DNA of 48,368 nucleotides from a virus: positions 1 through 48,368 of IMG/VR virus record IMGVR_UViG_3300013132_000077. One strand, written 5' to 3'. The translations under genes were made by a program, and so were the position numbers. The notes below the pieces were generated by a model, which saw only the letters and a list, made by a program, of their open reading frames with translations, had not been told where the DNA came from and did not search any database. Shown here piece after piece: positions 3,719 to 36,428 of the stretch. The first letter of the stretch is position 1. Each line of letters starts with the position of its first letter.

Positions 3719-4702
3719 CTATGTCGCCAATATCCTTTTCAGCTTTCCTATTATGGTCATTCCTATTATTATAGGATCCGCGTCGGATTCTATCTTTCCA
3801 CCATAGTCGGCTACTATGAAATTGCACTCGAATAGCTTATCTACGTTTTTTTGGTTTTGTATAGACCAGTCGATGAATGGCCTTCCCAATATCTTTATCA
3901 TCGATCCTATCTTTTCCGGACCAAACCTAGACATCAGAAAGTGATAGGTATCTTCGTATCCCGTATCTTCGTATAGATGCGAATATAGTTCTGATTTTGT
4001 CTTGGCGCTTATATTTGAAGATGTTCCGCTTATGTCTCCGGTTTCGATGAAATCCTGCAGGTCGACGAGTATGCTTCTAAAGTCTGGAAATTTCTTGTTT
4101 ATTATCTCTATTAGATTTTCTTTCGATATCTCCGCACCTTCCTTTGGCATTATCTCGTTCTGTATCTTTTTGTATATCTCGGTCTTCAGCTGCTTTTCTT
4201 CCTGCGTGTCCGTGCAGTCGAAGCATATTGACTTTATTCTGGACTTAAGCCCGTCCGATATCTTTTCTATATGGTTCGTTGTTATTATGAACCTCACGCT
4301 GTTGTTGTATTTTTCTATGAACGCCTTGAATGCGTCTTGGAATTGGGCGGATACTCTTTCGAATTCGTCCAAGAAGACGTATTTCACGTCTGATGACGAT
4401 TCGAACATAGGAGTGAACCTGCAGAAGTTCTGTATTTCCTCTCTTAGAACGTCTATAGAAGTGTCCATAGAGCAGTTCAGCTCTAGAAAGGGAGATTCCT
4501 TAGAGTATTTGCCTATCAGTATTCTTGCCAAGCTCGTCTTTCCGGTTCCGTAGTGGCCATAGAATATGTAGTGTTGGTTGACTCCGTTTTCGAATTGCTT
4601 CTTTATCCTGTTTGGGAGTATCGCGTCTTCCATTTTTTTTGGCCTCCATTTCTCCCATAGCAATATGCTGTTTGCAGACATCTTTTTATTGGTTTTTATC
4701 AC
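3719..4702 (-). CDS. gp44: Clamp-loader large subunit ATPase gp44
   Basis: 327 residues, against 319 in T4. The AAA+ core is clear: WRPKKMEDAI at the start, Walker A GHYGTGKTS (49-57), Walker B VFLDEFE (109-115) and sensor 1 IITTNH. The SRC motif of clamp loaders is seen as KSRIKS. With gp62 it loads the gp45 sliding clamp for replication and, in T4, for late transcription. gp62 and gp45 are not in this window. A 47-bp gap separates it from the divergent tail gene gp15. Confidence 0.9.
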   Translation of the reverse strand: MIKTNKKMSANSILLWEKWRPKKMEDAILPNRIKKQFENGVNQHYIFYGHYGTGKTSLARILIGKYSKESPFLELNCSMDTSIDVLREEIQNFCRFTPMFESSSDVKYVFLDEFERVSAQFQDAFKAFIEKYNNSVRFIITTNHIEKISDGLKSRIKSICFDCTDTQEEKQLKTEIYKKIQNEIMPKEGAEISKENLIEIINKKFPDFRSILVDLQDFIETGDISGTSSNISAKTKSELYSHLYEDTGYEDTYHFLMSRFGPEKIGSMIKILGRPFIDWSIQNQKNVDKLFECNFIVADYGGKIESDADPIIIGMTIIGKLKRILAT

Positions 4703-4734
4703 ATGATATATGCTTTCTTAGAGAGGAAGTTTAT

Positions 4735-4746
4735 TTAATATATAAC
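4735..4746 (+). promoter_or_regulatory. Late-type promoter motif TTAATATATAAC
   Basis: Ends 3 bases before the ATG at 4750, in the short gap between gp44 and gp15. Confidence 0.6.
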
Positions 4747-4749
4747 GGT

Positions 4750-5775
4750 ATGATAGGCGACAAGTTCAATTTCGAAGACGTATTCTTCAGAGACCTTACG
4801 GTCTGCGTGCTCGATACTCTCGAGGGTCAGCTAAAGTGGACAAATAGGTTTACTTCTGGTGACGTTTTCGTTCCGGTTCCTGTATACTATTCGCTTACAG
4901 GAGACGAGAGGTTTCTTCTGGATTCATTTTCTGACGATATCGTATCTGAGAACAGATTTGTCGAGCTCAACACGGACATCATTCCAAGAGGGCATCTTAC
5001 TATGACTGGATTCAACATAAAGTCCGACGAGTTCGCCAATCCGAATGTCTGGCTCAGGATGGTGGTGGAGAACGAGAAAGAGATAAGAAAGGTGCTCTCA
5101 AAAGTAAGAGCAGTTCCTATAACTGTCAACTACGATCTCACGATTCTTCTTTCTAGCGAGATAGACACTTTCAAATGCAGCCAGGCTATATTGGATACTC
5201 TTTGGATATACAAATTCATGTATTTCGAGCACAATTTCATGAACATAGACGCGGTCATGTTGATGCCTGACAGCAATTCTATAGAGATGAGCAGAGAAAA
5301 GAATCTCACAAGCGACAACAATATCAGGCTAAAATGCTCCTTTACGGTAGAGACATACTATCCTGCGTTTCGTGGAGATAGAGTCAACGATGTTGGCTAT
5401 CCTAGAGATTTTGGATCTGGAATGGTTGATGAGAATGGCTTCGTCCTTACTGGAGGATATTCCGACTACTTTCAACAACCTATTCCTTTGCAGCCTATTT
5501 CTTTGAATGAAAAATCCGATAGGTCAAAAGTTTGGAATGGCGGACCTTTGGAATTTCCGGCATATGGGCAGACTGGAAGTTTCTATAATACATCTAGGTC
5601 GGTTGGAGGATCTGATTTTCCAGGAACTTTGGCAAAAGAGGAAAACTCTGTTCTTCCTAAGAGGTCTAGATGGTTCAACAACATATTGCGCGCTAGGGAA
5701 CGAGCGGGCGGAAGCTCAGTCGATCCTGTTATATCGCAGCAGCAGGTCAAGCCTAGAGGCGATATAGAAAAATAG
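4750..5775 (+). CDS. gp15: Tail sheath stabiliser/completion protein, gp15-like
   Basis: 341 residues from the ATG at 4750; upstream in-frame starts lie inside gp44 and before the late motif, so they are rejected. The order of features follows T4 gp15: an early F-x-D-L stretch, SGDVFVPVPVYYSLTGDERF, a segment with RGHLTMTGF, then YDLTILLSSEIDTFKCSQAI and a late SFTVETYYP. gp15 forms the hexamer that caps the tail tube and sheath and joins the tail to the head. The last 120 residues (Gly/Pro/Ser rich) have no T4 counterpart that I recognise. Similarity is by pattern, not by strong identity. Confidence 0.7.
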   Translation: MIGDKFNFEDVFFRDLTVCVLDTLEGQLKWTNRFTSGDVFVPVPVYYSLTGDERFLLDSFSDDIVSENRFVELNTDIIPRGHLTMTGFNIKSDEFANPNVWLRMVVENEKEIRKVLSKVRAVPITVNYDLTILLSSEIDTFKCSQAILDTLWIYKFMYFEHNFMNIDAVMLMPDSNSIEMSREKNLTSDNNIRLKCSFTVETYYPAFRGDRVNDVGYPRDFGSGMVDENGFVLTGGYSDYFQQPIPLQPISLNEKSDRSKVWNGGPLEFPAYGQTGSFYNTSRSVGGSDFPGTLAKEENSVLPKRSRWFNNILRARERAGGSSVDPVISQQQVKPRGDIEK

Positions 5776-5835: not shown

Positions 5836-7119
5836 ATGAAGAATCTTAAACTTGAACTGTTTAACTTTAAGAAGAATCTTTCGCTTGATCAAGAAGAGAT
5901 CTCTGTTATAGTTGAGGGACATATGAATGCTTGCAACACTGCTTCTGAAAAGAGCATCATTGCTTCTCTTAACGAGAGGCTCAAGCCATATACATATGAT
6001 AAGGACGTCAGGTCTCTTTTAGAGAGCCTTGGTGATGATATGAAGAACTTCGAGCTTCTTTATGAGCTTAAGAACCTATACAACGTTTTGAACACGAAAA
6101 ATGGAGGCGAGCTGTACAGACAGCCGATAAACGTGCTTCTTCAGACTATCAACCTCGAGTCAGACCAAGACAGGATGTCCAAGGTTCTAAACGAGCTCGC
6201 GGTTTATGATTGGGTTCCTGAAATAAAGCTTTTCGTGCACAACCTTACTAAATCTCCTGAAAAGAAAAACAACTTGCTAAGCGGTGGAAAAGGAGAGTCT
6301 ATATACACGATCGTCGAGTCTGTCGAAGATGGGCATATAGCGCTTGTAAGAGACTCATGGTTTCTTCTCAGCGAGAACATCATAGAAAAGACGCTTTTGG
6401 AAAATCACATAAAAGACGAAGAGGATCTTAAATCTTTGAGGATGCTCGAGACTGCGATGAAATATGCGTCCGTTACTGAAGACAGAGTGAATTTCAGGAT
6501 TTCCGAATATCTTACAATCGGTCTTTCCGTTGCTAAAAAGGGAAAAGTGTACATCAATGACGATGAGATGAACGAAGAGACTACTCTAGAGAGCCTTTTC
6601 AATTCTCCGATAGTTCCGATAGTGAACAAGAATTTCTATCCGATCCTTCTGGAGGTTTCTCAGAACCTTGATAAATTCGTGGAGCTTGACGTTGTTAAAA
6701 GAGTTAACAACCTAATAAACCCATACCTTGAGTGTTTCGCGTTCAATTACAAAAACGCTACTTTTCTATATAGGTGCGACGAGAGATATGGAAACTCTTT
6801 CTACAGATACGAATCTGCTCTCGAATTGGTAAATGAAGTTAGAAACGAGCTAAACTACGACCTTACATATTTCTACGAAAACAAGCTTGGAAAAGAGCTC
6901 ATCGTTAAGAGAAAGCTGGAAGACAAGGAAAGAGAAGTTTCTCTTAAGCTAGAAGATGTTGCCTACAACATAGACAAGCTAAGAGGTTCTATAAAAATGA
7001 TAGGCGAGTCTGAAGTTCTAACTACTGCTCTAAAAAATCTCGAAAAGAGAAAGTCTGTTCTAGACGCGGAGCTTCTAGGAGTGAAAGAGCTTCAATACAA
7101 AGAAAGAATCAAGATTTGA
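5836..7119 (+). CDS. Large helical protein, unknown, probably virion
   Basis: 427 residues. It starts MKNLKLELFNFKKNLSLDQEE and is mostly alpha-helical and charged. The last 60 residues (EDKEREVSLKLEDVAYNIDKL onward) form a likely coiled coil. It has no signal peptide, no transmembrane segment and no motif I recognise. Size, late-type promoter, A-rich leader and position after gp15 suggest a structural or head-associated protein. A strong terminator follows at 7138. Confidence 0.75.
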   Translation: MKNLKLELFNFKKNLSLDQEEISVIVEGHMNACNTASEKSIIASLNERLKPYTYDKDVRSLLESLGDDMKNFELLYELKNLYNVLNTKNGGELYRQPINVLLQTINLESDQDRMSKVLNELAVYDWVPEIKLFVHNLTKSPEKKNNLLSGGKGESIYTIVESVEDGHIALVRDSWFLLSENIIEKTLLENHIKDEEDLKSLRMLETAMKYASVTEDRVNFRISEYLTIGLSVAKKGKVYINDDEMNEETTLESLFNSPIVPIVNKNFYPILLEVSQNLDKFVELDVVKRVNNLINPYLECFAFNYKNATFLYRCDERYGNSFYRYESALELVNEVRNELNYDLTYFYENKLGKELIVKRKLEDKEREVSLKLEDVAYNIDKLRGSIKMIGESEVLTTALKNLEKRKSVLDAELLGVKELQYKERIKI

Positions 7120-7246: not shown

Positions 7247-7612
7247 ATGTATCTTAACAACAGAGAACTCTACATCGAGCTTGTAGTGAGCAAAGCGCAA
7301 GGAAGGCTTACGCGAAACGCCCAAAAAATGCTCGAGCTTCTAGCCAAGAAGACCATCAAGAAGATGAGATATTGGTCCAACGACGACAAGCTAGATTGCT
7401 ACCAAAGCGGGCTGCTATACGTATTCCAGAACTGGCATAACTTCAACGAAGAAAAGTCCGTCAACGCCTTCGCCTATTTCACCGAGATATTCAAGCGAGG
7501 CATCGCCAAAGGCTACAACGACCTGTATAAGAAGAAAGGCGACAACGACCACCAGATAAGGCTGATCTCCATAGAGGGATCTAATGACGGAATGGGCCTA
7601 CACTCTCTATAA
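7247..7612 (+). CDS. gp55: Late-transcription sigma factor gp55
   Basis: 121 residues. The match to T4 gp55 is clear: LYIELVVSKAQGRLTRNAQKM, then CYQSGLLYVFQNWHNFNEEKS and NAFAYFTEIFKRGIAKGYND. The last two are the sigma region 2-like core that binds host RNA polymerase and melts the late promoter. T4 gp55 is about 185 residues; here both ends are short and the C-terminus is only EGSNDGMGLHSL. In T4 the C-terminal tip binds the sliding clamp; whether this short tail does is unknown. The gene overlaps the next start by one base (TAATG). It probably reads the TTAATATATA sites found across the window. Confidence 0.9.
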   Translation: MYLNNRELYIELVVSKAQGRLTRNAQKMLELLAKKTIKKMRYWSNDDKLDCYQSGLLYVFQNWHNFNEEKSVNAFAYFTEIFKRGIAKGYNDLYKKKGDNDHQIRLISIEGSNDGMGLHSL

Positions 7613-7755
7613 TGACAGATAAAATATGGACATACGACATAGTGATGCCGCCATCTTTTCAGATGGCTACTATGTCTTTTTCCATAAATCCTGCTAGATG
7701 CGTCGAGTATAGGAGAAAAAAGTCTATCGAGTCTATTTTTCCGTCACTTTTATGA
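7612..7755 (+). CDS. Small possible gene coupled to gp55
   Basis: 47 codons beginning at the ATG in TAATG at the gp55 stop (MTDKIWTYDIVMPPSFQMAT). It ends 23 bases inside the convergent gene at 7733. The overlap start suggests coupled translation, but the frame also runs through a terminator-like hairpin (7636-7682), so it may be spurious. Confidence 0.3.
   Translation: MTDKIWTYDIVMPPSFQMATMSFSINPARCVEYRRKKSIESIFPSLL
7636..7682. terminator. Two-part hairpin terminator after gp55
   Basis: Outer stem GACATAGT/ACTATGTC and inner stem GCCATC/GATGGC around loop TTTTCA, with a bulge on the left arm, followed by TTTTT. If the small frame at 7612 is real, this hairpin lies within it. Confidence 0.65.
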
Positions 7756-7927
7756 CAATCTCTACCTCTACGTTCTTGTCTTTGAACTGCTTCAGCGTAT
7801 TGTCTACGAAGTCTGACGGATTGTAGAGGCTTACTGCGTTCTTTCCTGTTGGAGTCTCGATTCCGAAGTTTTCTTTCGCTTCGAATACTCTACCTTCGTA
7901 TCTTTCCGTCAACAATGCCGATTTCAT
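7733..7927 (-). CDS. Small protein, unknown
   Basis: 64 residues (MKSALLTERYEGRVFEAKEN...), predicted as a small beta-rich fold with no recognised motif. It has its own TATATTTG element (7945-7952, minus strand) 17 bases before the ATG, so it is probably an early single gene. The hairpin at 7955 isolates it from the glutamine synthetase upstream. Confidence 0.65.
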   Translation of the reverse strand: MKSALLTERYEGRVFEAKENFGIETPTGKNAVSLYNPSDFVDNTLKQFKDKNVEVEIVIKVTEK

Positions 7928-7944
7928 ATCTGTCTTTTTAAATT

Positions 7945-7952
7945 CAAATATA
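7945..7952 (-). promoter_or_regulatory. TATATTTG (-7 type) promoter element
   Basis: Minus strand, 17 bases before the ATG at 7927. No -33 element at normal spacing. Confidence 0.5.
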
Positions 7953-7954
7953 AT

Positions 7955-7986
7955 AAAAAATTGCCTGATTTTTCAGGCAATTTTTT
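7955..7986. terminator. Strong terminator after glutamine synthetase
   Basis: TTGCCTGA (7961-7968) pairs with TCAGGCAA (7973-7980); A-run on one side and T-run on the other, so it can act in both directions. Confidence 0.85.
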
Positions 7987-7987
7987 A

Positions 7988-9031
7988 TTATTTCAGTATT
8001 GTCGTGACCATCTTTTCCACTATGAGATATGGATCTCCATTGGATGCTGGCCTTCTGTCTTCTATGTATCCTATTGAATCTGGATCCTGTATCGTCGATG
8101 GTATTCTTATCGATTTTGTCCTGTCTCCTATTCCCCATCCGAATTTTTCTATCGATGATGTCTCGTTGGCTCCTGTCAGTCTGGCCTCGTTGTTCTTCCC
8201 ATACACTTCGATGTGCTCAGCGTGCTTCTCTCCTAGCTTTTCGCACATCTCTATCGCTATCATCATCTTGTTGAGCTTGTCTTCTCTTATTGTTTTTGTG
8301 GAAAAATTCACATGCATTCCAGAGCCGTTCCATTCGTTTCCTGCGAATGGCTTTGGATCTAGCTCTATTCTGTATCCATATTTCTCGCTCAATCTGTGCA
8401 GTATGTATCTTGATATCCAAAGCTGGTCGGCACCTTCTTCCGCTGTGACCGTTCCTACTTGGTATTCCCATTGTCCTAGAGCTACTTCCGCGTTTATTCC
8501 GGATATCGATATTCCTGCGGATATGCAGAGGTCTGCATGTTCCTCTACGAATTCTCTTCCAGCGACGTTGTTCGATCCCACTGAGCAATAGTATTCTCCC
8601 TGTTCTCTCGGGCTTCCTTTTTCTGGCCATCCTATCGGCTTTTTGGTCTTTTGGTCGAATATGAAGTATTCCTGTTCCCATCCCCACATCGTCTCGTCGT
8701 CGTATTTGGATAGAGCATCCACCATCTTTTTTCTGGTGTTGCTCTCGTGTGCCGTTCCGTCGGTGTTGAATACCTCGCACAGAACCAATATCGAATCTTT
8801 CGCGAAAGGATTCATAAAGTAGTTTTTCGGAATTAGCGCGAGCTCTGATTTTGAAGTCTCTGCTTGATATGTCGAAGATCCGTCGAAGTTCCATATGGGT
8901 GCCTTCTTCTTCTTTGACTTGTATTGCTTTAGCAGTCTTTTAGTTTCCGTGTCGCAGTCTATTATCTTTGTCTTTGATCTCAGCTGTTGGGTTTCGCATC
9001 CGTCTAGCCATATGTATTCCAGCTTCTTCAT
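7988..9031 (-). CDS. glnII: Type II (eukaryote-like) glutamine synthetase
   Basis: 347 residues, full length for GSII (about 350-370). It makes glutamine from glutamate, ammonia and ATP. Signature blocks are in order: WNFDGSST (47-54), SELALIPKNYFMNPF, GWEQEY (117-122, with metal-binding Glu119 and Glu121), GINAEVALGQWEYQVG (178-193), NGSGMHVNFST (235-245, ATP site), ARLTGANET (283-291), SIRIP (307-311) and EDRRPASNGDPY (324-335). All expected active-site residues that I can place are present, so it is probably active. It may raise glutamine for nucleotide synthesis or change host nitrogen control. It is probably co-transcribed with the small gene at 9049. Confidence 0.93.
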   Translation of the reverse strand: MKKLEYIWLDGCETQQLRSKTKIIDCDTETKRLLKQYKSKKKKAPIWNFDGSSTYQAETSKSELALIPKNYFMNPFAKDSILVLCEVFNTDGTAHESNTRKKMVDALSKYDDETMWGWEQEYFIFDQKTKKPIGWPEKGSPREQGEYYCSVGSNNVAGREFVEEHADLCISAGISISGINAEVALGQWEYQVGTVTAEEGADQLWISRYILHRLSEKYGYRIELDPKPFAGNEWNGSGMHVNFSTKTIREDKLNKMMIAIEMCEKLGEKHAEHIEVYGKNNEARLTGANETSSIEKFGWGIGDRTKSIRIPSTIQDPDSIGYIEDRRPASNGDPYLIVEKMVTTILK

Positions 9032-9048
9032 TTTTTTTAAATATAATT

Positions 9049-9156
9049 TTATTTATTTATATTTCTAGTCATTGTTACTTGGTATTTAAAATACCCTGGG
9101 TGGTCTTTACTTTCTCTGATTAATTTACAATCAATTGCTTTTCTTCTTGTTTTCAT
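9049..9156 (-). CDS. Very small protein upstream of glutamine synthetase
   Basis: 35 residues, MKTRRKAIDCKLIRESKDHP and on, basic at the start. It is preceded by a TATATTTG element 16 bases before its ATG, the same spacing as for two other genes. It lies 17 bases before the glutamine synthetase ATG, so it may be a leader peptide or simply a small early gene in the same transcript. Confidence 0.5.
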   Translation of the reverse strand: MKTRRKAIDCKLIRESKDHPGYFKYQVTMTRNINK

Positions 9157-9172
9157 ATCTTATATTATATTG

Positions 9173-9180
9173 CAAATATA
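9173..9180 (-). promoter_or_regulatory. TATATTTG (-7 type) element, likely promoter of the 35-aa gene and glutamine synthetase
   Basis: Minus strand, 16 bases before the ATG at 9156. No other promoter-like signal is seen before glutamine synthetase. Confidence 0.5.
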
Positions 9181-9205
9181 AGGATAGTTTTTTGAATAAC
9201 TTAAA

Positions 9206-9217
9206 AATAATATATAA
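9206..9217 (+). promoter_or_regulatory. Late-type promoter motif AATAATATATAA
   Basis: Ends 3 bases before the ATG at 9221. Confidence 0.45.
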
Positions 9218-9220
9218 CAT

Positions 9221-9853
9221 ATGAGTATAATTAAGAAGTTTAGTATTTTTGAATCGGTTAGAAGAACCGAAGTTCCAAAACATTTTATTCCACTAAATAG
9301 TATAGGATACTATCTTGATCCAAATGATGGAAATACATATGCTATGTTAAAGACCGGCGGTTATGAAGACGAACCTTATAGTGCAGAAGAATATCTTCAA
9401 GAAGATGAAGAAACCTGGGAAGAGCTTTCGGATGAAGAAAAAGACTTAGTAAACTCAGTTTGTAAAAGTTGTGAAGATATAGTAGAACCTTTTATAGATT
9501 GGAATCTAATAGAGGACATTAAAGATGTGGCTCTAGCAAACGAGATATTAGATAAAGGATATACTTTAAAAATAGAGGTCAAAGAACAAGACGTTGCAGA
9601 AAAAATCTATGTTGAATGGGTCGCTCACGACTACGACTATAAACACTATTACAAATTTTTCAAAAGTTTATTTAGTCAGATAGAAAACACCAATGGTGAT
9701 TTTTCTTATAATATATCTGTATATAGAAAAAACGGACCGGGTGGATATCTTCCGATGGCCAAAGGTTCAAAAGATGAGATAGATGTTTTAGAAATGATTG
9801 AACAGGTAAAAGATATGAATCCAGATAAAAGCATTTTTATGAAACAGGATTAA
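9221..9853 (+). CDS. Acidic protein of unknown function in an AT-rich island
   Basis: 210 residues. It starts MSIIKKFSIFESVRRTEVPK, a variant of the shared leader (F-E-S). The rest is acidic (EEYLQEDEETWEELSDEEKD) with no motif I recognise. Its codons (TTA, AGA, GAA, many A/T thirds) are more AT-rich than in most neighbours, and it is followed by a broken Smr gene and a TnpB remnant, so the stretch may be a recent arrival. Confidence 0.65.
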   Translation: MSIIKKFSIFESVRRTEVPKHFIPLNSIGYYLDPNDGNTYAMLKTGGYEDEPYSAEEYLQEDEETWEELSDEEKDLVNSVCKSCEDIVEPFIDWNLIEDIKDVALANEILDKGYTLKIEVKEQDVAEKIYVEWVAHDYDYKHYYKFFKSLFSQIENTNGDFSYNISVYRKNGPGGYLPMAKGSKDEIDVLEMIEQVKDMNPDKSIFMKQD

Positions 9854-9869
9854 GAATATTCTATTCAAA

Positions 9870-9962
9870 ATGGTAAACAGATTAGATCTTCATGGAATAA
9901 AGCACGTTGATGTAGAAGTGTTAGTAGAAGACTTTATTCTTTCTGCTAAACCTACCTGTTAA
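9870..9962 (+). pseudogene. N-terminal fragment of an Smr-domain protein, cut by a TnpB insertion
   Basis: 30 residues: MVNRLDLHGIKHVDVEVLVE and DFILSAKPTC. LDLHGIKH is the start motif of the Smr domain, a nicking endonuclease/RNA-cleaving fold common as a small phage protein of about 80-90 residues. The frame stops exactly where homology to TnpB begins (near 9957). The missing Smr half is not found after the insertion, so the locus has lost sequence. Some bacterial Smr proteins cut mRNA at collided ribosomes, which is of interest beside tmRNA and RqcH parts, but this copy is dead. Confidence 0.65.
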
Positions 9963-10317
9963 ACACATTACAGATGCTTCATGGGGTAAATTCATTACTT
10001 TACTGGAGTATAAAGCCGTTTGGAATGATAAGCAGATAGTTAAAATTGATAGATTTTTCCCATCTAGCAAACAATGTAATAACTGTGGGTTTATAAATCA
10101 AAATTTAAAATTAGATTGTAGAGAATGGACTTGTCCATCTTGTAAATCTAAATTAGATAGAGATTTAAATGCTAGTAAAAATATCCTTAAAGAAGGAATT
10201 AAAATATCGTCCGGAACAGACGATTACAGACATGGAGCTCAAATAAGACCAGTTAAAACTGGCACAAGCGTCGAAGTGTTTAAAAAGAAGGAGCTTACGT
10301 CTCCGGAAACACGTTAG
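9958..10317 (+). pseudogene. tnpB: TnpB C-terminal half, 5'-truncated
   Basis: 119 codons without an own start, ending at TAG 10315. It has the RuvC/zinc part of TnpB: KIDRFFPSSKQCNNCG, then CREWTCPSCKSKLDRDLNAS. The CNNC and CPSC pairs are the zinc ribbon, and the D in DRDLNASKNI is the last RuvC acid. GAQIRPVKTGTS is typical of the tail. The N-terminal half and the left end are missing, so it cannot code an active nuclease. The stop lies within the right-end hairpin. Confidence 0.88.
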
Positions 10318-10340
10318 TCTTTAGCTAATGTGTAGTTCAT
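10310..10340 (+). mobile_element. IS605-type right-end hairpin, copy 2
   Basis: Stem CACGTTAG/CTAATGTG (one G-T pair), loop TCTTTAG, tail TAGTTCAT. Same structure as copies at 92 and 48246. The RNA 3' end of a TnpB guide RNA would fall here; flank after 10340 is ATTAGAAACTTTATCG. Confidence 0.75.
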
Positions 10341-10393
10341 ATTAGAAACTTTATCGCTATATTGCCATAAAATAGTATTCGTTTTTATATATT

Positions 10394-10693
10394 ATGAATA
10401 GGATAGTTTTGCAGCTATGGGAAGAGTCTGAAAGGATTCATGGTGTGCGTCCAGATGGATGCTCTATGCATATAGACATAGATTCTAGAGATTCATACGT
10501 ATCTTCTATATACTCTTCGAGAGACCCGTACAATGTTCCTGACGAGTATGAGAGGACTCTTGGGGGGCCAATAGTAGCTTATGTCAACGATTCTATGTTC
10601 GATGTGATATGTTCTGACAAGAGCATAAGAGTTGGTCAGAATCAGATGAATAATCTTATAGAGATGGAAGACATAATAATAAAAGAAGAATGA
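10394..10693 (+). CDS. Small acidic protein, unknown
   Basis: 99 residues (MNRIVLQLWEESERIHGVRP...). It is compact and mixed alpha/beta with no motif that I recognise. TTTTATATATT lies just before the ATG. The next gene begins inside its stop (ATGA), so the two are translationally coupled. Confidence 0.65.
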   Translation: MNRIVLQLWEESERIHGVRPDGCSMHIDIDSRDSYVSSIYSSRDPYNVPDEYERTLGGPIVAYVNDSMFDVICSDKSIRVGQNQMNNLIEMEDIIIKEE

Positions 10694-11037
10694 TAAGCAC
10701 ATTCTATTTGTTCTCGCTTGCGTTCATGTCAAACGAGATATATCACATATTCAATCGAAAGTGGCTAGACCTTCTATATAAAAACAAAAATCCCGAAAAT
10801 ATGAGAAGAGTGGACATAGTCTATTATCTTCTGAGGGTATTTTGCGTTTTCTGGACCATAGCGGGAATATTTTCATTCTGCTGGGGATTTTTCATAGGAT
10901 TGGCTTTGGCTGCGCTTTTCAAGTTCGCTGCCTACCATGCGGACGAGGATCTTTATAATCTCTATTCTCTGTATCTATATCCTTTTATATCTTTAGTATT
11001 GTATCTTTCGATATTCATGGCATGGCTTATACGTTGA
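10690..11037 (+). CDS. Small membrane protein
   Basis: 115 residues with probably three hydrophobic segments: about 46-70 (VYYLLRVFCVFWTIAGIFSF), an adjoining stretch to about 82, and the C-terminal YPFISLVLYLSIFMAWLI. It overlaps the preceding gene by four bases (ATGA). A holin or superinfection-exclusion role is possible, but nothing in the sequence fixes it. It ends 11 bases inside the convergent gp4 gene. Confidence 0.65.
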   Translation: MISTFYLFSLAFMSNEIYHIFNRKWLDLLYKNKNPENMRRVDIVYYLLRVFCVFWTIAGIFSFCWGFFIGLALAALFKFAAYHADEDLYNLYSLYLYPFISLVLYLSIFMAWLIR

Positions 11038-11554
11038 ATCTCTTCAGATGCTCTTCCGTTATTATGATGAAGTCGTAGCCTTTCTTGTCGCACCATTTTA
11101 TCATAGTCTCCCATTTCTGCTTGTTCTTGTATGCCATCTTCAGGTCGTACTCGAAGCTCTTCAGCTTCTTCATTCCTTTTTCCGGAACGGCGAGCCTGCC
11201 TTCGTTCAGATCCTGGACCATCTTGTATTCTTTCATTGGCTTTACTTCCATGACCACTTCTCTCAATATTCCTTGTGAATTCCTCATTTTGTAGAAGAAG
11301 TCCGGATAGTATCTGTGCGTCTTTATCTCTATGTTTCCGCCCTCGAAATGCGTCATCTGATAAGGTATCTCCAGGCACTCCGCTCCCCATTGGAATATCT
11401 CTTCTTTCATGTCTAGCCAGACCATTATCTTCTTTTCCCAAGAGCTTCTGTAGAAAACGCCGCCATAGGAGTTTAGCTTTATCACTTTTTCTTTGTTTTT
11501 CGGAACGTAGTTTCCTCCGTGATATTTGCTGTTGTTCGGCCTGGAGTTAATCAT
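11027..11554 (-). CDS. gp4: Head completion protein gp4
   Basis: 175 residues (T4 gp4: 150). The diagnostic run is GVFYRSSWEKKIMVWLDM, then a QWGAECLEIPY block, HRYYPDFFYKM and the late YDFIIITEEHLKRF. This is a nuclease-like fold (E...D...K) that acts with gp50 at the portal to finish the DNA-filled head before tail joining. The first 30 residues (NNSKYHGGNYVPKNKEK) match the usual gp4 start. A TTATATATAAA motif in the 44-bp divergent gap could serve this gene and the gene at 11599. Confidence 0.85.
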   Translation of the reverse strand: MINSRPNNSKYHGGNYVPKNKEKVIKLNSYGGVFYRSSWEKKIMVWLDMKEEIFQWGAECLEIPYQMTHFEGGNIEIKTHRYYPDFFYKMRNSQGILREVVMEVKPMKEYKMVQDLNEGRLAVPEKGMKKLKSFEYDLKMAYKNKQKWETMIKWCDKKGYDFIIITEEHLKRFNV

Positions 11555-11598
11555 TTTCGTATGCTTTTTTTTATATATAAATAAAAAATATCTTTTTT

Positions 11599-12294
11599 AT
11601 GGGAGAGCTGATGGAAAGAGTCAAGCTGAGCCTTCTCGTATATGGGAACGGAATAGAAGAAAATTTCAAGAACAATTCCGCTTTCATGGCAGATGCCTAT
11701 TCCAAAAGCTCTAAAATGGTCACTGCGGTGGATATTTCCAGAATACAGGCTGGATATTTCTATTTTTTCCATTATCTGGACTCTTCCAATTGGATGAAGT
11801 ATTCTCCTGTTTTCGTGGCAGGCCACAAAAAGTTTGGAAACCAAACAATCATATTCGGCATAAATCTGAATTTCATTCCTATAGAAGTTCGCGCGATGAT
11901 GTTCGACGAATATCTTACCCCGGAAGACATTGATGACGACCTTCCCATAAAGACCGAGTACGAGAAGACGTACAACGAGCTGAAGCAGGTCGGATTCGAA
12001 TATACGCTGATGGAGTACAATGCCATACAGATAAAGATGGTGCATAAGATAAATATGCAGATTCTGCCGAGATTTCTATATTCGCAGCACCCTTTGGCCA
12101 CATATGATCCGAAGAAGCTCGTCCAGATATGGAACAAGAAGCTTGAGACTAAAGAAGCCAGAGACAAAGAGATGATGAGCGCGCTCATACAGGACTTCTA
12201 TGATGTCAATAAGGAGATTTCCGATAGGTATGTCGTATTGAAGGAGCATATAAAGAGGCTTCAGAAAAGCGCTCGAAAATATGGAGGAAAATAG
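11599..12294 (+). CDS. T4-like virion or packaging protein, unnamed
   Basis: 231 residues. The central part reads GYFYFFHYLDSSNWMKYSPVF, then FGINLNFIPIEVR. This layout recurs in T4-like phages in a protein variously called DNA end protector or structural protein; I cannot assign it firmly. The C-terminal 50 residues are helical and charged. It lies between gp4 and the portal, which fits a head role. The ATG follows a long A/T leader. Confidence 0.6.
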   Translation: MGELMERVKLSLLVYGNGIEENFKNNSAFMADAYSKSSKMVTAVDISRIQAGYFYFFHYLDSSNWMKYSPVFVAGHKKFGNQTIIFGINLNFIPIEVRAMMFDEYLTPEDIDDDLPIKTEYEKTYNELKQVGFEYTLMEYNAIQIKMVHKINMQILPRFLYSQHPLATYDPKKLVQIWNKKLETKEARDKEMMSALIQDFYDVNKEISDRYVVLKEHIKRLQKSARKYGGK

Positions 12295-12305
12295 CAGGTT
12301 TTATA

Positions 12306-12313
12306 TATCTTTG
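12306..12313 (+). promoter_or_regulatory. TATCTTTG (-7 type) element
   Basis: 22 bases before the ATG at 12336; fits TAnnTTTG. Confidence 0.4.
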
Positions 12314-12335
12314 TAGAGTATTTAAACTTCTCAAT

Positions 12336-12782
12336 ATGAAATATTCCACATATATAGCTGCGGCAGAGCGTCTATCGATATTAGGACAGAAAAAAAAGGC
12401 TTCGGCGTTGGTTGACCACGCGATCATGCAGGAAAGAAAGAAGATCGACGAGCTCAATTTCAATATACTGGTCGGAGAAGTCCGAAATTTCAACGGCGCC
12501 AAATTCCATTCGGTTCAGGTATTGCGAGAAAGAGAAGCAAACACGCTGATGTGCATCTTTAATTCGAATGTCAACACGCATAGGATCTGCGCCAACCTTC
12601 GTCCGGGCGGAGATGTTGTCTGGTCTGACGGAAACCTTTTTTCGGATAGGCAGTCTGTCAGAAGCTATGAGAAGCTTTTGGCTTGCCTTTCATCATATCA
12701 TCCTGAAATAAAAAAGCTGCTCTCTGAAATAGAAGTTTCTAGAGAATCCATCAAGGTAGTCGGCCGCACTTTCTACGTGTAG
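12336..12782 (+). CDS. Protein of unknown function
   Basis: 148 residues. The N-terminus MKYSTYIAAAERLSILGQ is helical and recalls the capsid-targeting leaders of T4 internal proteins (MKTYQEFIAE). The centre is likely beta (RICANLRPGGDVVWSDGNLF). No catalytic motif is seen. It sits directly before the portal but has a host-type element upstream rather than the late motif. Confidence 0.65.
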   Translation: MKYSTYIAAAERLSILGQKKKASALVDHAIMQERKKIDELNFNILVGEVRNFNGAKFHSVQVLREREANTLMCIFNSNVNTHRICANLRPGGDVVWSDGNLFSDRQSVRSYEKLLACLSSYHPEIKKLLSEIEVSRESIKVVGRTFYV

Positions 12783-12841: not shown

Positions 12842-14563
12842 ATGGCATCATATAATTACAACAACACCAAAGATTCGCAGGGAATGGGATTCGTCAATTC
12901 CGCGGTAGAGAACAAAGGACTCTTCAGCCGCATATTGAGAAACCTTTCCAATTATGGCATGAACTACGACGACATGATCGTCAGGAATCAGGTGGGTATA
13001 GGAATAAACGAAGATCCTTATGCGGCCAAGGGAAACTCCATGTACGACTTCTTTTCTCAAAGAGCGGTCGCTTCCGTCTTGAGCAGGAAATCCATACCTT
13101 ATCTAGACAAAGGATATGCGGACAAAAGAAGAATATTGAGAGAATATTCCATAAAGGACGAGATAAGAGACATGGTCAGCATGATTGCAGACGAGTGCAT
13201 CGTCTACAACGACGACAGAGACTTCTGCTCGCCTAGGCCTATAGGAAACGACTATCCTCAAGAGGTGCAGGACCGATACCAGGAATATTTCGAGAAGATC
13301 TACAGCAAATACGGCTTTTCTGACAGCATCACCGCATGGAACATGATGAAGGACTTCTTGGTGGATGGTTTCGTCGCGGTCGAGATAATATACGACGACA
13401 AAAAGAAGAACATAATTGGATTCAACAGGCTTAGGCCAGAGACTATCGTTCCCGCATACGAGCCTAACGTAGGCCATCTCTGGATACAGTTTCCTGAAGA
13501 TCCTCAGCTAAGGAGGATATTTCTCGATTCTCAGATAGTTTTCGTGTCGTATTCGACTCAGAACGACTATTCTGAGACATCATACGTAGAGGGGTTGATC
13601 AAGCCATACAACCAGCTGAAGATTCTAGAGCAGACGAGGATAATGTTCAACGTCATAAACGCTACTATATACCAGAAGTTCACTATTCCGATCAAAGGAC
13701 TCTCTAGGCAGAGAGCAGAAGAGCAGATTGGTCAGCTCATACACGACTATTCGGAAGAGGTGGAGTGGGACGACACTCTTGGAACTCTTACGATGAACGG
13801 AAACAAGCATCTTCCTTACAACAAGCAGATATGGTTTCCGGAAAGCGACGCGGGTACGCCAAACATGACATTAGAATCGCCGCAAGGACATGATCTAAAC
13901 GAAGAGAGCATGCTCAAATGGTTCCACCAGGCTCTCAAGAGGGCCTCCAAGATTCCTATACAGAGATTCGAAGCGGAAAGCGGCGGCGGTACTTTCATCG
14001 CGGATACCGCTGGCCTCACGAACGACGAGGTGAAGTTCCACAATTTCATAAGCAGATTGAGGGCGAATTTCAAAGAGCTTATAGTCAAGCCTCTTAAGCT
14101 TCAGATGCTTATAGAGTTTCCTGAGCTGAAAGACGACGAGATCATAATGAACCAGATGGATATCGTCTTCTATTCGAACCAGATATTCGAAGAATGGAAG
14201 AAGATCGCCAATCTGGCCAAAAGAGCCGAGGCCATAACTACGCTTACTGGAATAATGAACGGCGAGAAGCCATACTTCCATATTGAGTGGATCATGGATC
14301 ACGTATTCAAGCTTACTCCTGAAGAGAAAGCCGACAACCAGAAATACTGGGCCAAGGAAGCTGGCGGAGCTGGCGCTACTGGCGAGATTGCCGGAGGTGC
14401 TGAAGGAGGCGCTCCTGCACAAGGCGGCGGAGAGATGGGTGGCGAAGCACCGGTGCAAGGAGGCGCGCAGGCACAGGCACCAGCCGCGCAAGCCCCTGCA
14501 CAAGGAGGAGGACAGGCCGCGCCGGAAGCTCCTGCACAGGGCGGCGGAGAATTCGAATTCTAG
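12842..14563 (+). CDS. gp20: Portal vertex protein gp20
   Basis: 573 residues (T4: 524). The T4-type portal core is clear: RREYSIKDE-type start (RILREYSIKDEIRDMVSMIA), ECIVYNDD, FDGFVAVEII-like VDGFVAVEIIYD, and the long FRPETIVPAYEP-like RLRPETIVPAYEP. It also has GTFIADTAGLTNDEVKFHNF and a long C-terminal helix. Twelve copies form the ring through which DNA enters and leaves and on which the prohead starts. The last 60 residues are a Gly/Ala/Gln/Pro repeat tail (APAQGGGQAAPEAPAQGGG) that T4 lacks. A strong terminator follows. Confidence 0.92.
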   Translation: MASYNYNNTKDSQGMGFVNSAVENKGLFSRILRNLSNYGMNYDDMIVRNQVGIGINEDPYAAKGNSMYDFFSQRAVASVLSRKSIPYLDKGYADKRRILREYSIKDEIRDMVSMIADECIVYNDDRDFCSPRPIGNDYPQEVQDRYQEYFEKIYSKYGFSDSITAWNMMKDFLVDGFVAVEIIYDDKKKNIIGFNRLRPETIVPAYEPNVGHLWIQFPEDPQLRRIFLDSQIVFVSYSTQNDYSETSYVEGLIKPYNQLKILEQTRIMFNVINATIYQKFTIPIKGLSRQRAEEQIGQLIHDYSEEVEWDDTLGTLTMNGNKHLPYNKQIWFPESDAGTPNMTLESPQGHDLNEESMLKWFHQALKRASKIPIQRFEAESGGGTFIADTAGLTNDEVKFHNFISRLRANFKELIVKPLKLQMLIEFPELKDDEIIMNQMDIVFYSNQIFEEWKKIANLAKRAEAITTLTGIMNGEKPYFHIEWIMDHVFKLTPEEKADNQKYWAKEAGGAGATGEIAGGAEGGAPAQGGGEMGGEAPVQGGAQAQAPAAQAPAQGGGQAAPEAPAQGGGEFEF

Positions 14564-17511: not shown

Positions 17512-19611
17512 ATGAAGCCAGTTTTAATAGTAGAGAATTCTACGAATTCTCTTGTTAGAGAAAGCGCTGCAGGAAAGAAGGACTATGTTATGAGCGGTAC
17601 GTTCACTGAATTCGGAGTTAAGAACCGAAACGAGAGGATATACACTGCCGACAAATTCCTTCCTGCTCTTCAGGAGATGAATGAGAGGATGAGCAACCTT
17701 GGGGTTGTGTACGGTGAGTTCGATCACCCGGATGTCTTCGACACTTCTCTTTCGCGCGCTTCTCACGTGATCACGAAGGCTGATTACGTGGCCGAGTCTA
17801 ACCTAGTGGCCGGAGAAATCAGATTGCTAAGCACTTATTGGGGAAAAGAAGCAAAGTCGCTCGTGGATGACGGGTGTCCTGTATTCGTTTCTTCAAGAGC
17901 GGCGGGCATCACCGAATCTGACGGAACCGTTTCGTTGAAGAAGTTATTCACTTACGACATTGTCGCGGATCCTGGATTCGCCTCTGCTAAGATGAACGTT
18001 AAGGTTCTGAACGAGTCGCTTGGCTACGCTAACCCGAAATCTAACTTTAGGATATATGAAATGTCCGATGAGTCTAAAACCGAAGAGTTATTCAATATGA
18101 ACAAAAACGAATTCGTCACAAAGCAGCAGCTTACTGACTATTCTCAGTATTTGGTGAAGGAGCTCGCCTCTACTAAGAGCGTCGTTAAGAACGCCATCAA
18201 GAAAGGTGACATGAATCCTAAGAAGCTCGAGCAATTGCTGGAATACTATGAGGAACTTAACAAGACAAACTCTCAAGTAGTTAAATATCTAGACTATTTA
18301 GCTGAGAAAGTTCAAGTTATGGTAAATGAAAACAAGTCTTTGAAAGAGACTACTAAAAAGCTTATCAAGCACAACGACTATCTCGCTGAGAACCTCGAGA
18401 AGGCGGTTAACTATTCCGAGTATCTCGCTGAGAACCTCGACAAGAACATCGCTTATTCCGAGTATATCGCTGAAAACGTGGACAAAAACATCTCTTATAC
18501 TGAGTATGTTGCTGAAAACGTAGACAAAAACATCTCTTACTCCGAGTATCTCGCCGAGAACCTCGACAAGAACATCGCTTATTCCGAATATCTAGCCGAG
18601 AACCTCGACAAGAACATCGCTTATTCCGAGTATATCGCCGAGAACCTCGACAAGAACATCGCTTATTCCGAGTACATCGCAGAGCATGTGGACAATTCTA
18701 TAGCTTATTCCGAATATTTGGCAGAGCACGTTGAAGGCAACATCGCTTATTCCGAGTACATCGCAGAGCATCTTGATGACAACATCGCATACTCTGAATA
18801 CATCGCTGAAAATCTTGACAAATCTATTTCCTACCAGGGATTGATCGTTGAGAAACTGAATGGCGGAAAATTGAATGAGTCTGCTGAAGGCGCTTTTCCT
18901 TCTCTTAATTCCGCAGGATTCGAAAGAGTTGAAGAAGAAGACGAAGAAGAAGACGAAAACGAAGACGCTTATTCAAACAACGGAATCGCAGAAGTCGCAC
19001 CTAACCATGTTGACGCTCACGAAGACGAAGAGGACGAAGAGGACGAAGACGAAGACTGTGGTCCTAGCAAATACGAAATCTCCGGACATTCTCACTCAGA
19101 ATTGTCCGAATCAATAGATAAACTTATCGAAGAAGCTACCAAACGTAAAGTTTCTGAGACATCCGACATGAATTTCTTGAAGTTTTTGTCAAAATCGCAA
19201 GTTGACAGCTTCTATGCTCTTACAAACGAAGAGCAGGAGACGGTTAAGCTACACATAAACGAAAGCAGCTACTTCACTCAAAAAGAAGTATTGTCTCTTA
19301 TCGCTGAAGCATTGTCTACTAAAAACGAGACTCTTGAAGAAAGAGTTATCAGAATGATGCCTGAAAACACAAAGGCTATCTGGAATCAGCTGAACGAATC
19401 CGCTAAGAAATCTATCTTGTCTCAAGCTAGACTCTACCCTGTTGAAGTTCTTCAGACTGAATCTCAAATCGAGCATTTCTGGGCAACTAGAAACCTCAAA
19501 ACAAACGAATCTGTTACAAAAAAGCTGGTTTCTCACGAAGCTCTTATCCAAGAAGATAAGCTGTCCGACAATGAGGTTTCCGCTATAATGGAAAGATTCA
19601 AAAACATCTAA
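17512..19611 (+). CDS. gp21-gp22: Fused prohead protease (gp21-like) and scaffold (gp22-like)
   Basis: 699 residues. Residues 1-165 form a gp21-type serine protease: SGTFTEFGVKNRNERIYTAD, GEFDHP (68-73, catalytic His72 likely) and VFVSSRAAG (Ser127 or Ser128 likely nucleophile). Then comes a helical scaffold with eleven 14-residue repeats of YSEYLAENLDKNIA type (287-440), an acidic stretch (EEEDEEEDENED) and a helical C-terminus. T4 makes the two as separate proteins (212 and 269 residues). Candidate self-processing sites of [IL]xE type, LNE-S, occur at 166-168, 454-456 and near the C-terminus. The late motif and A-rich leader fit high late expression. Confidence 0.85.
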   Translation: MKPVLIVENSTNSLVRESAAGKKDYVMSGTFTEFGVKNRNERIYTADKFLPALQEMNERMSNLGVVYGEFDHPDVFDTSLSRASHVITKADYVAESNLVAGEIRLLSTYWGKEAKSLVDDGCPVFVSSRAAGITESDGTVSLKKLFTYDIVADPGFASAKMNVKVLNESLGYANPKSNFRIYEMSDESKTEELFNMNKNEFVTKQQLTDYSQYLVKELASTKSVVKNAIKKGDMNPKKLEQLLEYYEELNKTNSQVVKYLDYLAEKVQVMVNENKSLKETTKKLIKHNDYLAENLEKAVNYSEYLAENLDKNIAYSEYIAENVDKNISYTEYVAENVDKNISYSEYLAENLDKNIAYSEYLAENLDKNIAYSEYIAENLDKNIAYSEYIAEHVDNSIAYSEYLAEHVEGNIAYSEYIAEHLDDNIAYSEYIAENLDKSISYQGLIVEKLNGGKLNESAEGAFPSLNSAGFERVEEEDEEEDENEDAYSNNGIAEVAPNHVDAHEDEEDEEDEDEDCGPSKYEISGHSHSELSESIDKLIEEATKRKVSETSDMNFLKFLSKSQVDSFYALTNEEQETVKLHINESSYFTQKEVLSLIAEALSTKNETLEERVIRMMPENTKAIWNQLNESAKKSILSQARLYPVEVLQTESQIEHFWATRNLKTNESVTKKLVSHEALIQEDKLSDNEVSAIMERFKNI
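18370..18831 (+). repeat. Eleven 42-bp tandem repeats in the scaffold region
   Basis: Units code for [YH]xxY[LIV]AExxxxxI[AS], for example YSEYLAENLDKNIA. Units 5, 6 and 7 are nearly identical in DNA (CTCGACAAGAACATCGCTTA), which points to recent duplication. Confidence 0.9.
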
Positions 19612-19698: not shown

Positions 19699-21426
19699 AT
19701 GTCACACATTAGAATAGACAAGGCGAAAGCCACTAAGAAATGGGCACCGGTTCTTGAGAACATGGGTGTTACAGGTGATAGAGTAGAATGGATGGCAGAA
19801 TATGCTGAGTTCCACTCAATCAACGAGAACGCGTACGTTAACGCATCTAACGTAGCTGGTATGGGCGGTGTATTCGCTGCGCAGCCTGCTGCATACGCTG
19901 GTAACACAATCGGCGGTTCTTTGGCGACTGCCAATTCAGTAGGTCAAATCGGTTCAGGAGATGTTGGTCAAAACCTTCTTCCAGTTGCGATGAAGATCGC
20001 TGCTCAGACTATCGGTCTTGATCTAGTTGCTGTTAAGCCAACTCCAGGTCCGAAAATCGACCTTCTTTACATCGATTTCCAATACGATGATACAAGATTA
20101 GGAAACTCTGACGAAAGACCACAGGTTTTCAAATTGAACACTACTAACCCTACTACAGCTGCTCTTGCTGCTGCTATGAAGAGTGGTAACGGTGCTTCTA
20201 TCTCTGAAGTAACAGGCGGACTTAGAAACGGAAGATTCTTCTACTCTATCAACGCTACAGGTACTGCATCTTTGGGTGCTACCGTATCTACAGACGAACC
20301 TAGCAGCAAAGCAGGTGTTGTTGAGTTCCTAGGATTCTCTAGGATCGACGGATTCCCAATCTTCAGGGCTTTCAGACAAGCAAACACTGCTCACGGTGTT
20401 GTAGGTTCTGCTAACACTGCTTGGGCTTTCGACTCACAAAGAAACACTTTTGGTGCTACTTCTTCCATGGTTTCTCAAATCGAAAGAATCGCAGGCGTTG
20501 CAATATCCGCTGCTACTATCGAATTGGTTTCCGCATTAGAAGACCATATCCCAGGATTCTCTACTAACTTTGGAGGAGTTCCTTCAGGCGCTGCACAAGG
20601 TGCATACCCAATGTCAAGGCAAGAAGACGATGATTCTTATGCAGGAGTTATCGGTCCTAAAATCTCTTCTAAAACTATCGCGGTTGGTACTATCGAAGTA
20701 TCTTCAGCTCTTAGAAGAACTGAGATCGAAGACATCAAGGCTAACACAGGTATGGATATCGTTCAAAAAATGGAATCTATCCTTGTTAACGAATTGTCTC
20801 AAACAATCTCTAAGCAAATCGTTGCTAAAATCTTCGAAATGGGTTCTCTTAACAGAAAGTCTGCTCCTTTGAAATCAGGATCTTCTTACTCTGATACAGC
20901 TGCTTGTACACTTTTCGACCTTGATACATCTTACGTTTCAACAATGGCCGGTGGTGAGACTACTCACGCAGTTCAAAGAAAGCTTATCACTAAGATAGCT
21001 CATGCTTCCAACTACATCGCGACTGAAGGACGTGTAGGTCCTGCTCAGTACCTTGTAACAAACGGAGGTCTTGCTGCTGCTCTTCAAGACATCGCTGGAT
21101 ACACAATCAACCCAGTTAAGTCTAAATTAAACGGACAAGGTCAATTATACCCTGTAGGTTCAATAGGCGACATCGCTATCTATGTTGATCCATACATGAA
21201 GTATAACGACAACAGGATCGTATTGGGTAGAAAGAACAACCCAGACCAACCAGGTATCATCTTCGTACCATACTTGATGGCTCAGTCTATCTCAGTTATC
21301 TCTGAGGCAACTTTCGCACCAAGGATGTTGTTGAGATCTAGATATGCGGTTGCTGAAATCGGATGGTTCCCACAAAAACAATTCATGACTCTAGTAGTTA
21401 CTGACGCTGCTCAGTACCTCAACTAA
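19699..21426 (+). CDS. gp23: Major capsid protein gp23
   Basis: 575 residues (T4: 521). It has the T4/HK97-type capsid order: a helical N-terminal arm, GQIGSGDVGQNLLPVAMKI, GLDLVAVKPTPGPKIDLLY and RRTEIEDIKANTGMDIVQKM. Near the end are ATEGRVGPAQYLVTNG, YVDPYMKYNDNRIVLGRK and SEATFAPRMLLRSRYAVAEI. A likely maturation cut lies after INE (41-43, SINE/NAY), an [IL]xE site like that used by T4 gp21. Codons are more strongly biased than in neighbours, as expected for the most abundant protein. Two shorter paralogues of its C-terminal part are at 27159 and 41586. Confidence 0.95.
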   Translation: MSHIRIDKAKATKKWAPVLENMGVTGDRVEWMAEYAEFHSINENAYVNASNVAGMGGVFAAQPAAYAGNTIGGSLATANSVGQIGSGDVGQNLLPVAMKIAAQTIGLDLVAVKPTPGPKIDLLYIDFQYDDTRLGNSDERPQVFKLNTTNPTTAALAAAMKSGNGASISEVTGGLRNGRFFYSINATGTASLGATVSTDEPSSKAGVVEFLGFSRIDGFPIFRAFRQANTAHGVVGSANTAWAFDSQRNTFGATSSMVSQIERIAGVAISAATIELVSALEDHIPGFSTNFGGVPSGAAQGAYPMSRQEDDDSYAGVIGPKISSKTIAVGTIEVSSALRRTEIEDIKANTGMDIVQKMESILVNELSQTISKQIVAKIFEMGSLNRKSAPLKSGSSYSDTAACTLFDLDTSYVSTMAGGETTHAVQRKLITKIAHASNYIATEGRVGPAQYLVTNGGLAAALQDIAGYTINPVKSKLNGQGQLYPVGSIGDIAIYVDPYMKYNDNRIVLGRKNNPDQPGIIFVPYLMAQSISVISEATFAPRMLLRSRYAVAEIGWFPQKQFMTLVVTDAAQYLN

Positions 21427-25367: not shown

Positions 25368-26207
25368 ATGAGAAAACTTATAGAACTTACAGAGAAACAA
25401 GAACAGGACCTATTCGAGAGAAGAGAGGCCGGTGAGAAAAGGAAAGACCTGATAAAAGAATTTGCGGTTTCCGATAGAGAATACAAAAAAATAATACTCA
25501 AACACGGCGGCGTACTGAAGAGTAAAGTGCAGAAGTACAACTTTAACGAGAGCTACTTCGAAAACATCGACACTGAAGACAAAGCTTACTTTCTCGGTTT
25601 CATCACTGCGGATGGATCTGTTAATGATGATTATGCGAAATTTGTAAAAATAAAACTGAATGCCGACGATTTCGGTATTCTGGAAGATTATATTTCATAT
25701 ACGAAATATGAAGGACCTGTTTATAAACACAAAAATGGAAAGTATTGTGAAGTTGCTTTATCGGGTAAAAAAGTCGTAAGCGATTTGAATAAACTGGGTA
25801 TACTACCAAACAAAACACATACCGTTGAGTTTCCTAAAATACCCGAGAATTTAGTACGTCACTATATGCGTGGTGTTTTCGACGGTGATGGTTGCATCTC
25901 AATACACAAAAAAAGAGAAGGATCTCGCGATACCTCTGATAGAGGTCAAGTGAACCTCTGTTCAGCAAGTAAGAACTTCATAGAGGAATACGTTGATCGT
26001 TTACAAGTATGTTGTGGTATAACAAAGAATAAAATAAGGAATCCGAAGGGTTCCTACTATGTCATCGACTGGGGTTCTTTTGCGGATATAGAGAAGTTTT
26101 ATTATTTCTTCTACTCTAACGCCAACGTCTACCTGAAAAGGAAAAAAGAAACTTTCGACATCGCTATCGGTATAAGTAAGACAAAGACTAGATATAGAAA
26201 AAAGTAA
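25368..26207 (+). CDS. LAGLIDADG homing endonuclease
   Basis: 279 residues, two LAGLIDADG motifs: LGFITADGS (76-84) and MRGVFDGDG (167-175), whose acids are the metal ligands. Such a monomer cuts an asymmetric site of about 20 bp. The N-terminal 55 residues are a helical, HTH-like basic part. It is free-standing between two genes, not in an intron or intein as far as can be seen. It is more AT-rich than its neighbours, so it probably arrived recently. A TATATAATG sequence precedes the ATG. Confidence 0.88.
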   Translation: MRKLIELTEKQEQDLFERREAGEKRKDLIKEFAVSDREYKKIILKHGGVLKSKVQKYNFNESYFENIDTEDKAYFLGFITADGSVNDDYAKFVKIKLNADDFGILEDYISYTKYEGPVYKHKNGKYCEVALSGKKVVSDLNKLGILPNKTHTVEFPKIPENLVRHYMRGVFDGDGCISIHKKREGSRDTSDRGQVNLCSASKNFIEEYVDRLQVCCGITKNKIRNPKGSYYVIDWGSFADIEKFYYFFYSNANVYLKRKKETFDIAIGISKTKTRYRKK

Positions 26208-26229
26208 AACCTAATATAATCAAGCAAAA

Positions 26230-36421: not shown

Positions 36422-36428
36422 TTTATTT

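Follow-up and report, generated by a model that had tools for sequence, protein, structure and literature searches.

The locus studied here raises the question of what a complete type II glutamine synthetase (GSII) does in a phage genome, and with it whether the enzyme and the phage are what they seem to be. The window, that is, the whole stretch of DNA that was analysed, is a linear virus contig of 48,368 bases that represents a fragment of a larger genome.

The glutamine synthetase (GS) gene of the window (Table 1) reads from an ATG to a stop codon without internal stops, and its product lies within the length of about 330–370 aa that we used for membership of GSII. Both Pfam domains, Gln-synt_C (PF00120, 2.2e-21) and Gln-synt_N (PF03951, 5e-09), were detected in it, in the GSII layout of a beta-grasp N domain and a catalytic domain, without a C-terminal extension of the GSI type. 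The NCBIfam model NF041605 for GlnII matched with 362.7 bits (1.7e-108) along model positions 4–328 of 333. This score misses the curated cut-off of 500 bits, which was also missed by all 17 cellular Bacteroidota GSII genes scored (366–430 bits) and thus marks a set narrower than all GSII. Full-length matches were obtained with the solved enzymes of yeast (3fky, 1.4e-86) and Streptomyces (4bax, 2e-85), the latter being also the top Foldseek match (TM 0.88) of the AlphaFold2 model of the protein (pLDDT 91.3, pTM 0.92).

Alignment to the maize enzyme 2d3a was used to map the active site, whose positions we take to be catalytic or ligand residues (catalytic Asp, metal-binding Glu and His, Glu flap, Arg ligands). 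All 13 positions checked are canonical (D50, E119, E121, E182, E189, G236, H240, R284, E290, R304, R309, E324, and R326), and the same residues were found in every phage copy covering them (112–114 sequences). Beside the catalytic Glu of the flap, Asn replaces maize H296 in 38 phage GS copies, including that of the window, and Asp replaces His at maize position 235 in the group of phage enzymes to which the window copy belongs (isoform A, see below). A chance resemblance of this ORF to GSII is excluded, and the original prediction of a complete GSII in a phage, with its signature blocks intact, is borne out by the open frame, the families, the fold and the phage genes on both flanks.

That the contig could be host DNA had been named as a way to overturn that prediction, but the window encodes a T4-like portal, capsid, head maturation protease, clamp loader and late sigma factor, and is phage. 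Its nearest portal and capsid relatives, with 73–80% identity, belong to the uncultured phages LR745206 (634,780 bases) and LR756502 (642,428 bases), followed by those of LR756504 (636 kb), LR756501 (735 kb), a 462-kb phage and the Lak phages. The Mahaphage clade takes in the largest genomes of Al-Shayeb et al. together with the Lak phages, and Bacteroidetes hosts were predicted for its genomes over 634 kb (PMC7162821). Both the portal and capsid affinities and a common gene block place the window with Mahaphages of the 634–642 kb type. An alternative genetic code was considered and rejected, as TAG ends 21 of the 54 ORFs of at least 90 aa called with table 11, and these cover 92% of the window, so the standard code stands.

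Several other genes of the contig were recorded. An RNase R-like exoribonuclease with RNB (PF00773, 1.2e-110), cold-shock and S1 domains lies within the head gene cluster (15,081–16,964, minus strand), and a PHROG family for RNase R-like proteins exists (phrog_13933). A LAGLIDADG homing-endonuclease-like ORF stands immediately ahead of a D12-class adenine DNA methyltransferase (25,368–27,162, plus strand), and a 752-aa protein (30,578–32,836, minus strand) has numerous matches to collagen-like and tail-fibre families. In addition, a glycosyltransferase cluster (34,246–38,063 and 42,313–43,074, minus strand) includes a GT1-FkbM methyltransferase fusion (36,429–38,063) and a GT9-like protein.

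Table 1. Features of the window around the GS gene and its phage hallmark genes.
Feature	Position	Strand	Evidence or remark
T4 gp44-like clamp loader	3719..4702	-	phrog_168 8.7e-50
Conserved 387-aa protein of the GS block, function unassigned	4612..5775	+	Neighbour clustering
Conserved 427-aa protein, locus marker	5836..7119	+	296 relatives among viral contigs
T4 gp55-like late sigma factor, conserved flank of the GS site	7247..7612	+	phrog_234 4e-08
64-aa ORF downstream of GS, present in some relatives	7733..7927	-	Neighbour clustering
Type II glutamine synthetase (GlnII), isoform A, complete, 347 aa	7988..9031	-	Families, fold, active-site residues
210-aa ORF between GS and the 99-aa gene	9221..9853	+	Not a regular block member in relatives
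Conserved 99-aa protein, with which the regular block resumes beyond GS	10394..10693	+	
Conserved 115-aa protein	10690..11037	+	
T4 gp4-like head closure / TnsA-like nuclease fold	11027..11554	-	phrog_218 1.9e-32; PF08722 6.6e-14
T4 gp20-like portal	12842..14563	+	PF07230 1.2e-56; 80% identical to LR745206
Head maturation protease	17512..19611	+	phrog_207 7e-29
gp23-like major capsid protein	19699..21426	+	PF07068 2.6e-28; 73–74% identical to LR745206, LR756502

Clustering of the neighbouring genes revealed that GS occupies a defined place within one conserved block, made of the portal, two small core genes, the head closure gene, the 115-aa and 99-aa genes, GS, the late sigma factor, and the 427-aa and 387-aa genes, in which GS is encoded on the strand opposite to that of most of the others. 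The late sigma factor is mostly 82–98% identical among syntenic relatives. The 427-aa protein had no match in Pfam or PHROG, and no family match was found for the 210-aa ORF beside GS. A 35-aa ORF that ends just upstream of the GS start was considered as a leader peptide or GS-inactivating factor and discarded, as it is missing upstream of the GS of relatives.

The locus was surveyed with the 427-aa gene as marker, taking 80 loci from the 296 found, and the GS genes were assigned to isoform A (over 57% identity to that of the window) or isoform B (47–49%). The 92 usable loci comprised 34 with isoform A, 39 with isoform B, 16 in which both flanks were present without GS, and three that were cut short; after removal of near-duplicates, the 56 remaining loci divided into 16, 26, and 14 with A, B, and none, respectively. 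Therefore, GSII of one or the other isoform is kept in 73 of 92 syntenic loci (42 of 56 non-redundant ones). In three of the GS-free sites (L083, L074, and L070), the flanking genes are only 89–307 bases apart. These genes also occur in the 636-kb phage LR756504, whose entire genome is free of GS domains. As a quarter of the non-redundant relatives lack it at this site and LR756504 lacks it throughout, GS is dispensable. On a tree of the flanking genes, its absence corresponds to at least six changes on well-supported branches, either losses or gains. Two other GS-free loci (L087, positions 7415–12,430, and L088) have the block from a 148-aa to the 99-aa gene inverted relative to the portal.

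Where the gene is present, it is under purifying selection and shows no decay. Nei–Gojobori dN/dS values were 0.034–0.194 in 16 of 17 pairs, with about 0.04–0.19 for the window GS against close relatives, the other pair being saturated, and the estimate is rough in the several pairs with dS above 1. This retention in most close relatives, which had been proposed as a check of the original prediction, and the phage flanks make it a host-type metabolic gene under selection inside a phage genome, that is, an auxiliary metabolic gene.

A GS tree of 70 rows, built with the careful method, resolved two phage-only clades, one with isoform A together with the copies from L018 and L020 (100/99) and the other with isoform B (100/100). 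The two join at a fork of 92/85, below the level that we mark with a star, and uniting isoform A with a Bacteroidota-rich cellular clade instead was not rejected (p-AU 0.108). Type B enzymes were also found in a different gene context in three loci (L024, L026, and L030). The GSII of the 735-kb phage LR756501 is nested, with 100/99, within the Bacteroidota-rich clade. That all Mahaphage-type GSII, this copy included, go back to one origin was rejected (p-AU 8e-15), and the 735-kb phage captured its GSII independently, from within the Bacteroidota clade. The nearest cellular GSII are mostly from Bacteroidota, at about 50% identity, among the best 80 matches that made up the cellular sample, so that statements on the donor are limited by this sampling. 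Together with the hosts predicted for the nearest phages (PMC7162821), this gives indirect support to the Bacteroidota link suggested at the outset.

The tree of five flanking genes, obtained with a quick method, separated the clade of the window (isoform A or none, 21 rows) from a mostly-B clade (34 rows) with a support of 100. Three carriers of isoform A (L111, L113, and L115) were placed inside the type B clade, and forcing them to group with the window clade was rejected (p-AU 0.0014, an optimistic value, as the grouping was picked after the tree had been seen). In L111 and L115, the late sigma factor is 98% identical to that of type B phages vs. 90–91% to that of type A, and the same holds for the 99-aa gene (70–71% vs. 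45%), the 115-aa gene (63–64% vs. 48%) and the head closure gene (90% vs. 75–76%), the portal being also nearer to type B phages. GS alone is nearer to type A (73–74% vs. 51% to type B). These patterns indicate a single-gene replacement with boundaries adjoining GS, which suggests that selection acts on having GSII activity at this site and not on a particular gene copy. That Mahaphage-type phages exchange GS isoforms at a fixed site, from which the gene is also repeatedly absent, seems to be new, as it is undescribed in the literature searched. A more tentative proposal, which we hold to be possible but would not favour, is that giant phages of Bacteroidota keep a dedicated GS slot between late-sigma and head genes, in which divergent isoforms are swapped singly through recombination between phages, lost, and possibly regained, the isoform tracking the nitrogen enzymes of the host.

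Neither the enzyme nor the idea that phages carry GS as an auxiliary metabolic gene is new. GS was reported in 9 of 25 moraphages (PMC12619734), and glnA from jumbo phages (PMC13037316). No paper in the literature searched paired the phrase "type II glutamine synthetase" with "bacteriophage". The initial view of the gene as rare in phages did not hold: one narrow scan with the window protein matched 54 viral contigs, and when a 17-sequence alignment served as the query, GSII was encoded by at least 586 IMG/VR contigs, with several phage lineages among them. Not all of these contigs need be phage, as IMG/VR includes viruses of eukaryotes. Such genes are common in large aquatic phages, and nitrogen assimilation is thus among the functions that the largest known phages repeatedly carry as cargo. 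In another large-phage lineage (L027, L029, L033, L034, L042, L044, and L048), the neighbours of GSII include a 5'-3' exonuclease and a Cpn60-type chaperonin.

As for its function, the window probably encodes a catalytically competent GSII, carried as Mahaphage-type cargo at a fixed site, that would provide extra glutamine to the infected cell outside the switch that controls GSI. That the enzyme is active, its oligomeric state, its expression in the infected cell and the benefit from glutamine supply are inferred. Purifying selection, the retention of a GSII at most loci, the exchange of GS alone in L111 and L115 and the independent capture by the 735-kb phage speak for this reading. The enzyme would convert glutamate, ammonia and ATP into glutamine in the infected, probably Bacteroidota, cell, its gene being a cargo gene set between the late sigma factor and the head-closure/portal block. 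The tyrosine that is adenylylated in many bacterial type I GS sits in the C-terminal region; as the short type II form has no such region, it should work outside adenylylation and may thus escape this control by the host. Glutamine would be kept available for host amidotransferases and protein synthesis during the replication of a genome of over 600 kb, and could also feed nucleotide synthesis, as had been proposed. Elsewhere among phages, GSII adjoins genes for DNA polymerase B (polB), recA, a DnaB-type helicase, thyX and RNR, a context that fits such a use and makes it plausible. A search of LR745206 and LR756502, both with GS, for the two Pfam families of class I and class II glutamine amidotransferases gave no match (positive controls matched), so that the glutamine would go to host enzymes; that these phages themselves show no obvious glutamine consumer counts against the supply role, as do the relatives that lack the gene and the Asn beside the flap Glu. 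Of 80 Bacteroidota genomes sampled, 13 had a GSII, so the phage enzyme may often differ from that of its host.

Alternatively, the main role of GS could be in signalling, with raised glutamine and lowered glutamate or 2-oxoglutarate turning off the nitrogen-limitation response of the host, as was also put forward originally. It is well established that glutamine and 2-oxoglutarate signal nitrogen status, and GSII escapes the adenylylation of GSI, both in keeping with this role. Other viruses carry PII genes (PMC8115048), but no nitrogen-regulator or ammonium-transporter gene was found among the window proteins searched and, as sequence cannot separate signalling from supply, we regard signalling as the unlikely main role. 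A gamma-glutamyl ligase that has been repurposed for another amine (a polyamine, a modified base or a cell-wall precursor) would have parallels in the Streptomyces GS homologues GlnA2, GlnA3 and GlnA4, which use other substrates (PMC8998196, PMC5403932, PMC6529630), and the Asn and Asp exchanges of type A might point in this direction. Nevertheless, this seems quite improbable, as every residue checked in the sites for glutamate, ammonium and ATP is canonical, the window protein scores 362.7 bits as GlnII vs. 45.5 as gamma-glutamylputrescine synthetase, and type A exchanges in place with type B. Finally, functionless passive cargo or host DNA, to which the patchily empty site (14 of 56 non-redundant loci) might point, is extremely improbable and already contradicted by purifying selection without decay, by phage genes on both sides and by a position constant across many contigs.

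The occurrence of isoform A, isoform B or none between like flanks at one site offers a natural comparison for the purpose of a phage metabolic gene. Compared with known systems, the window GS resembles cellular GSII (GlnII; NF041605; 4bax, 3fky, 2d3a) in length, fold, active site and both Pfam domains, but differs in its identity of about 50% to the nearest copies found, in the Asn for His beside the flap Glu and in its place in a phage-only clade. The moraphages (PMC12619734) are likewise large aquatic phages with GS as an auxiliary gene and predicted Bacteroidota hosts, but form a separate phage lineage. The 735-kb Mahaphage LR756501 also has a GSII, and a related portal and capsid (46–51%), but its GSII lies elsewhere in the genome and is nested in the Bacteroidota-rich clade. 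Closest are the Mahaphages LR745206 (634 kb) and LR756502 (642 kb; PMC7162821), which share the gene block, the position and orientation of GSII and a portal 77–80% identical to that of the window, whereas their own GSII is isoform B, 47–48% identical to the window GS.
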